Origin: an uncultured Rhizobiaceae bacterium
GTDB taxonomy: Bacteria > Pseudomonadota > Alphaproteobacteria > Rhizobiales > Rhizobiaceae
DNA length: 64,000 bases
Assembly: GCA_958296345.1 (NCBI GenBank)
Contig: CATQIJ010000013.1
Coordinates: forward strand, 558,001 to 622,000
Reading direction: 5' to 3'
Under the pieces are notes generated by a model, which saw only the letters and a list, made by a program, of their open reading frames with translations, had not been told where the DNA came from and made no database searches. This document shows, piece after piece, positions 21,767 through 46,411 of the stretch; the stretch's first letter is position 1; every line of letters begins with the position of its first letter. The translations under genes and the position numbers were made by a program.

Positions 21767-21788
21767 GCTTCAGTTTCTCTTCTTTTTT

Positions 21789-21894
21789 GCAAACAATTCA
21801 GTAGGAATTGCTTTGCTATCTTTGTTTGCGAACAAACCAAAAGGGTTTGCTTTGCTTTATTTATTGGTGAACAATTCAATTAGAATTGCTTCAT
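21789..21894 (-). repeat. Three 39-bp tandem hairpin units between sucA and sucB
   Basis: Three units with stem starts at 21794, 21833 and 21872 repeat exactly every 39 bp. Stems are CAATTC/GAATTG, CAAACC/GGTTTG and CAATTC/GAATTG, each around a 5-base loop and flanked by G(C/T)(A/G)AA on one side and CTT(T/C) on the other. The middle stem differs from the others on both sides so that pairing is kept, which points to a conserved RNA or DNA fold. The rest of the gap (21767-21936) holds no gene. Confidence 0.8.
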
Positions 21895-41390: not shown

Positions 41391-41957
41391 TTACTCTTTT
41401 GGAGCTTCTTCAGCTGGGGCTTCTGCTGCCGCTGCTTCTTCAGCCGCTTTTGCTTCCGCTGCAGCTTTCTCAGCTGCCGCATCTTCTGCTGCTTTTTCTT
41501 TAGCTAGCGCTTCTGCTGATGCAATTTTTTCCGCTTCTAGGCGTGCTTTTTCATCAAGCATTGCTTGACGCTCAGCATCGTTAAGCTTTTTAGCACGAGT
41601 ACCAGTGTTTTCTGTAATACGCGCTGATTTACCACGTAGTTCACGAAGGTAGTAAAGTTTCGCGCGACGTACTTTACCGCGACGTACAACTTCAACACCT
41701 TCAACCAGTGGAGAATAAATTGGGAATGAGCGTTCAACGCCTTCACCGTATGAAATTTTACGAACTGTAAAGTTCTCTTGGAAGCCAGCACCCTGACGAC
41801 CAATACAAACACCTTCAAAAGCCTGTACACGAGTACGTTGACCTTCTGTTACACGTACTAGGACGCGAACTGTATCACCTGGTTCAAAATTTGGGAGTGT
41901 GCGCTTTTCAGAAATGCGAGCGGCTTCTTCAGCGTTAAGCTGTTCAATAATATTCAT
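41391..41957 (-). CDS. rplS: Ribosomal protein bL19 with Ala/Glu-rich tail
   Basis: Residues 1-130 are a standard bL19 ([38 protein letters not shown]). The last 55 residues are an acidic Ala/Glu-rich tail ([20 protein letters not shown]), helical and probably disordered at the end. bL19 sits at the 30S-50S interface. The total of 188 residues is longer than the usual 115-150. A 323-bp gap separates it from trmD upstream. Confidence 0.95.
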
Positions 41958-46043: not shown

Positions 46044-46053
46044 GCTTTTACCT

Positions 46054-46165
46054 TGTCGGATTTCCTTATCTTTTTCGCTAATAGCTCAAAAGGGAAAGCC
46101 TTTTCTCTTTTTCTGTCGGGCTTTCTTATCTTTCTCGCTAGTCGCTCGAAAGGAAAGACCTTGGT
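46054..46165 (-). repeat. Two 60-bp tandem hairpin units upstream of ffh
   Basis: Units starting TGTCGG at 46054 and 46114 align with a 60-bp period. Unit 1 pairs TTTCC/GGAAA (46061/46093) and CTTTT/AAAAG (46070/46088); unit 2 pairs CTTTC/GAAAG at both equivalent places (46121/46153, 46130/46148). Three base pairs differ between units with both partners changed. They lie 10-120 bp before the ffh start, in its presumed leader. The rest of the gap (46166-46411) shows no gene. Confidence 0.75.
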
Positions 46166-46411
46166 TGCTGTCACATACTTTCAATATGAGGTCAGCATAC
46201 CTCAAACACAAACCAAAACAAAAAAATCACCCGAGGGCGCAACGCGCTGTCGGATGTTTGCCTGAAGGAGCTCTTTATACCTTTTCGGGTCCCTAATAGC
46301 ATTTTCAAATCTGGTCTCTGTATGAGATGAACTGTATAAACAGTGAAAGGGACAATAAGTCAAGCTTAGTGTTGATTCATAGATGATTGCCATTAATGTA
46401 GATATTAAATA

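Follow-up and report, generated by a model that had tools for sequence, protein, structure and literature searches.

Tandem hairpins upstream of ffh in a Rhizobiaceae genome as probable copies of a short mobile relative of rhizobial palindromic repeats

REPs of the GTAG and CGTC types are short palindromes that lie outside genes, mostly on their downstream side, with stems of 5-13 bp (8-9 bp in CGTC REPs), a terminal unpaired tag and a predominant arrangement as head-to-head dimers (PMC3733652). The CGTC type is common in alphaproteobacteria, with no known associated transposase (PMC3733652). Ribosomes can be stalled by REPs that lie no more than 15 nt from a stop codon (PMC5082802). Among rhizobial repeats, one report names the types RIME, Sm and A/B/C (PMC2573895), and another names RIME and Sm (PMC2245857). 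The ffh motif and the rpsB motif have likewise been described (PMC2704228). Here we analyse two tandem hairpin units located immediately upstream of ffh in a window of 64,000 nucleotides, which belongs to a draft genome from the Rhizobiaceae group (2.94 Mb, 23 contigs, 83% complete). With a probability of about 0.9, both units represent a short, non-autonomous mobile element of one Rhizobiaceae genus, a divergent single-hairpin relative of the bulged-hairpin repeats of rhizobia.

Since ffh is encoded on the minus strand, its leader is the minus strand as well (Table 1). Read in this direction, the ffh-proximal unit is AAGGCTTTCCCTTTTGAGCTATTAGCGAAAAAGATAAGGAAATCCGACA (46102-46054) and the distal one AAGGTCTTTCCTTTCGAGCGACTAGCGAGAAAGATAAGAAAGCCCGACA (46162-46114), and the units end 10 nt ahead of the ffh ATG. 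They form a direct repeat with a period of 60 and 80% identity, each unit alone comprising 2 bp, a mismatch, 5 bp, a 4-nt ATAA bulge on the 3' side, at least 5 bp and a loop. The outer and inner arms occupy the positions given for them in the original prediction, shifted by 60 in unit 2, and the alignment bears out its count of exactly three pairs that differ between the units, each time with both partners changed (T-A/C-G, C-G/T-A and T-A/C-G in the seed alignment). Folded singly in the ffh sense, the units reach -11.8 and -13.9 kcal/mol (z about -2), and the consensus hairpin was obtained both times, its inner part consisting of 5 bp followed by a small inner helix. The antisense strand folds similarly, and when a 137-nt stretch was folded whole, pairing between the two units was preferred. 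A scan of the 64-kb window with the arms and the bulge alone returned 10 matches, about as many as in shuffled sequence, among which the ffh pair are the only family members. The signal beyond chance is the recurrence of the hairpin elsewhere, with its covariation, and not the architecture scan of the window.

Table 1. Features at and upstream of ffh (positions in the window)
Feature	Position	Strand	Evidence
ffh (signal recognition particle GTPase), 519 aa	44484-46043	minus	
Likely Shine-Dalgarno AAGG of ffh, adjoining unit 1	46051-46054	minus	sequence, inference
Unit 1, ffh-proximal, 49-nt bulged hairpin	46054-46102	minus	covariance model 72.5 bits, E 2.2e-16
Unit 1, pairs	46099-46100/46058-46059, 46093-46097/46061-46065, 46088-46092/46070-46074		
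Unit 1, mismatch	46098 vs 46060		
Unit 1, bulge ATAA	46066-46069		
Unit 1, loop	46075-46087		
A-rich linker GAAAAAGAGAA separating the two units	46103-46113	minus	sequence
Unit 2, ffh-distal, hairpin of unit 1 moved by 60 nt	46114-46162	minus	71.7 bits, E 3.9e-16
Unit 2, bulge ATAA	46126-46129	minus	
Rfam RF01793 'ffh' leader motif	46220-46271	minus	43.2 bits, above gathering score
Promoter-like TTGACT-16-TTTATA, upstream of RF01793	46336-46363	minus	found by eye

The linker between the units resembles what relatives have just ahead of their ffh ATG (GAAAGAGAATAG for G011 and CAAAGAGAATTG for G010), and AAGG likewise precedes this ATG in G001, a genome without units. Upstream of both units lies RF01793, the ffh motif (PMC2704228), whose sequence is kept in relatives without units; it shares the leader with the units but is a separate conserved hairpin, located at least 58 nt upstream of them and present in relatives that lack them. 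A T run (CGGGTGATTTTTTT) after RF01793 gives the region before ffh an intrinsic terminator- or attenuator-like appearance (46213-46271, minus strand). A sequence similar to the promoter-like element further upstream is also present in relatives, and a consensus promoter scan did not report this element; if functional, it would place the units in the ffh leader. As for the earlier view that the units directly precede the ffh start and would be part of its leader RNA, the location stands, and it is compatible with a leader.

The same window contains a second array of AT-rich tandem hairpins between sucA and sucB (21781-21891), for which kinship with the ffh units had been proposed, partly on the strength of a shared TATCTTT. 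This proposal fails. The array repeats every 39 bp, its hairpin is another one, GCAAAGCAAACC..GGTTTGTTCGC, and the covariance model R1 described below finds no match in it, so that a common family is ruled out, the array belongs to a separate family, and the shared TATCTTT is fortuitous. This second hairpin family, AAGCAA(4-24)TTGTTCGC, has 24 exact matches in the source genome and 20 in G007, and its copies often occur as tandem or opposed pairs. The window further holds a 15-bp imperfect tandem repeat (TTCTTCAGCTGCTGT, 6.7 copies, 41406-41505) within or at the end of an ORF.

BLAST with the ffh units detected two weak further places, and the pattern CTTATCTTN{4,28}AAGRRAA added four new copies that are convincing by their surroundings, a match at C6:191859 being taken as chance. 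The covariance model R1, built from nine copies (a seed aligned by sequence, its members having been gathered with the hairpin as a guide), detects 12 copies in the source genome with E values from 2e-16 to 2e-3, spread over about ten places, and about 40 copies in 8 of 12 congeners. Thus, further copies exist in the genome, and the suggestion of a family of structured repeats with compensatory changes is upheld, its covariation lying above every shuffle and above slid controls. In the seed alignment, 6 of the 12 pairs are changed on both sides. In an alignment of 31 copies, which was fitted to the model and so leans towards the structure, 98.1% of cells are paired, compared with 79.5% in shuffles and 40-59% with the partner slid; both-sided changes affect 8 of the 12 pairs (66 double-changed cells in total), and 360 cells are Watson-Crick pairs versus 4 that are G-U. 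That G-U pairs are so scarce speaks for selection on, or copying of, the DNA itself. The bulge reads ATAA or ACAA in 28 of the 31 copies, and position 5 is mismatched with its opposite in all 31, a regularity that is suggestive only, given that independence would leave about 11% paired at the base composition of the two columns.

The units are insertions and not ancestral structures, because congeners show clean empty sites. These were recovered by searching the congeners with the flanks of seven copies and aligning the retrieved regions. In the gap between two ketoacyl-synthase genes, the hairpin is absent in 8 of 8 congeners, and in seven of these CTT or CAT is directly followed by an AGGAG-type Shine-Dalgarno sequence and ATG, at a place where the source genome has 56 additional bases (CTT then AGGAGATA..ATG in an empty site versus CTT, 56 nt and AGAGATAGACATG in the filled one). 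Clean empty sites occur at four loci in all (L111, L112, L114 and L120), in 3-8 congeners each; beyond the ketoacyl-synthase gap, they concern the copies C1:15822, C13:366433 and C6:132732. A further copy, C18:78614, is common to the source genome and G007 and missing from the other congeners compared. The empty sites carry no duplication, and a target-site duplication of fixed length, as in a MITE, was not found, most copies having none at all. Flanking direct repeats beyond those in shuffles were seen at three loci, with lengths of 14 nt (L123), about 40 nt (L136) and 25-51 nt (tRNA-Ser). A 12-nt direct repeat at L115 was discarded as a target duplication; it probably pre-existed, a similar sequence being present in the empty site of G009. 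Because the units are inserted palindromes, their compensatory pattern need not imply a selected RNA.

With genes taken as ORFs picked by length, without curation, four copies have the final base of a stop codon as their first position (C6:132732, C3:68159, C13:366433 and C1:15822), two congener copies are at most 1 nt away from a stop codon, and seven copies (one of them weak) are separated by 5-12 nt from an opposing gene's stop. Inside operons, the far end of a copy is often 7-25 nt ahead of the next start. A position just 3' of stop codons is frequent, perhaps in part through selection removing insertions elsewhere. Other copies occupy leaders and flanks of RNA genes: in six species of the genus, the rpsB-leader copy lies inside the variable part of RF01815 (L117:1447-1619), and copies adjoin tRNA-Ser in two species. 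The idea that the rpsB and tRNA-Ser copies are rRNA inserts was dropped, as Rfam shows an rpsB leader and a tRNA instead. Two species carry, ahead of tRNA-Ser(GGA), a duplication of the 5' portion of this tRNA gene that encloses the hairpin (L116:1400-1560; L141:90-300). A dispersed repeat of G003, about 310 bp long and 79-95% identical between copies (L125, L130, L133, L137 and L142), contains the hairpin, which is here captured by, or part of, a larger element.

A second covariance model, R2, built from 31 copies, was run on 249 genomes of the family. Its matches outside the genus are hairpins of larger repeats, including a Sinorhizobium repeat of 108 bp that comprises two palindromes, and hairpins with GATAACGACATGC at their end. 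The 108-bp repeat is presumably RIME1 (Rhizobium-specific intergenic mosaic element). The matches in G055, G147, G211, G163 and S. meliloti pSymB score 24-34 bits and share the plan of the first palindrome. The Sinorhizobium repeat is intergenic and present in many copies, and the outer stem, inner stem and 3' ACAA bulge of the family recur in its first palindrome, GCATGTCTCC..GGACAAAGACATGC. It differs in having a second palindrome, in the high identity between its copies, and in an A-T pair at the third outer position, which is never paired in ffh-type copies; no second palindrome follows the copies of the source genome in the flanks checked. Among plasmids, blastn in distant mode gave no match to the ffh units, whereas the Sinorhizobium repeat was found at 238 places (near mode) and a repeat of Rhizobium at 1193. 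The latter, the Rhizobium leguminosarum repeat CTAAAGCATGTCGCGCAAAAGTGTGCAGCGGTTTTGCGATAACGACATGCGTAAAAACAAAGA, occurs in 452 plasmid records and scores 17-25 bits with R2. It shows the same plan, an ATAA bulge and an A-rich tail, and in two of its three annotated examples (L224 and L227) the repeat begins with the final base of a stop codon. Unlike in ffh-type copies, its third outer position pairs, and in L223 and L227 a second short palindrome, CTAAAGCG..CGCTTTAG, follows, which was unseen in ffh-type copies. We regard the ffh-type units as a divergent branch of the palindromic repeats of rhizobia; what the two have in common is their plan, at low sequence similarity, which suggests homology of that plan and common descent.

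The number of units at ffh varies, with two in the source genome and G011, one in G009 and G010, and none in G001, G005, G004, G003 and G002; in the source genome and G011, moreover, the two units stand in opposite order of type. In the ffh tree, unit-less species fall within both the well-supported clade of the source genome, G011, G009 and G001 and the well-supported pair G010/G005. Conservation ahead of ffh was not found across the clade, G001 and G005 having 0 units versus 1-2 in their sister species. This bears on the proposal of a cis-regulatory RNA dedicated to ffh, in which the tandem hairpins would bind protein or RNA, be selected in the leader and act with RF01793. Their place between RF01793 and the Shine-Dalgarno sequence, their occurrence at the ffh leader position in four species and their compensatory changes would all suit such a role, as would the GAGCNNNNAGCGA loop of the ffh copies, with two possible sheared G.A pairs, which the rpsB-leader copies have too. 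However, the same hairpin follows unrelated genes, G001 and G005 lack units despite belonging to the same clades, more distant relatives have RF01793 only, and the number or order of units differs between the source genome and G011, which makes dedicated cis-regulation quite improbable. For the ffh copies, we think tolerance or a modest effect on expression likelier than a dedicated switch. The location of copies just after stops, convergent genes included, could also be read as a sign of intrinsic terminators or 3' mRNA stabilisers with separate origins behind each gene, but this reading is extremely improbable: no U-tract follows the stem, the bulge, arm and end sequences that the copies share demonstrate their common descent, some insertions are clean and recent, and copies occur within operons just ahead of the next start codon.

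We consider it unlikely that the compensatory changes are a mutational by-product of template switching between arms (quasi-palindrome correction), with no selection for RNA or protein binding. The excess of double changes over G-U intermediates (66 vs 4) is what would be expected if the arms change together, yet such correction would be expected to remove the mismatch and the bulge as well, and these persist in 31/31 and 28/31 copies. It explains matched arms, not dispersal or insertion, and since it accounts for the arms only, it could act together with a mobile element. Movement as REPs of the GTAG or CGTC super-family by a RAYT transposase is very unlikely. The units are of similar size, extragenic and near stop codons, and Y1/RAYT-like transposase genes are confined to G000, G007 and G009, the genomes with most copies (such genes were noted at L117:3-605, L147 and L146). 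Against this, G003 has copies and no detectable Y1 gene, and neither of the two RAYT genes inspected, in the source genome and G007, is bordered by a unit, their flanks holding GGGACAGTTTACTTA-type or other sequence; one weak match (20 bits) lies about 1 kb from the gene in the source genome. RAYT was thus rejected as the cognate enzyme, its association with copy number in three genomes notwithstanding. The source-genome gene (L117:3-605, C16) has GGGACAGTTTACTTA-type repeats on both sides and may form another repeat-transposase pair. The ffh-type units also differ from GTAG and CGTC REPs in their longer, bulged stem of about 12 bp or more and in lacking a tag at a fixed place, and the ffh pair is a head-to-tail tandem. 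An unpaired GTAG or CGTC/TGTC/CCTC end tag is not conserved among the 31 copies, although TGTC stands at the tag place in the two ffh units and a few others. Identity with CGTC REPs was rejected, as the features described for these (PMC3733652) do not fit.

The mobile-element reading is supported directly by family membership, conserved architecture, insertion as seen from filled and empty sites, and variable copy number at ffh. The element would consist of a 49-nt imperfect palindrome with a short A-rich tail and would spread within one genus of Rhizobiaceae, inserting for the most part into the intergenic space directly 3' of stop codons, and also into a small number of leaders (ffh, rpsB and the 5' flank of tRNA-Ser). 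As the arms vary together while the bulge and the mismatch stay, it may be mobilised in trans by a putative enzyme that recognises folded single-stranded DNA. The ffh copies would be transcribed and fold as leader hairpins between RF01793 and the Shine-Dalgarno sequence, where they may be tolerated or modestly alter the stability or translation of the ffh mRNA. A bolder version is distinctly unlikely: that an undescribed mechanism recognises the bulged, mismatched hairpin and inserts it with its A-rich tail beside stops, occasionally with long variable direct repeats, the ffh and rpsB leader copies having been co-opted for regulation.

These results carry the warning that covarying leader hairpins may be mobile DNA and not regulatory RNA. 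Through one plan, with its fixed ATAA bulge and its start on the stop codon, the low-identity hairpins of an uncultured genus are joined to the classical repeats of rhizobia, and the recent insertions with their empty sites make the mobilising activity of these repeats testable.
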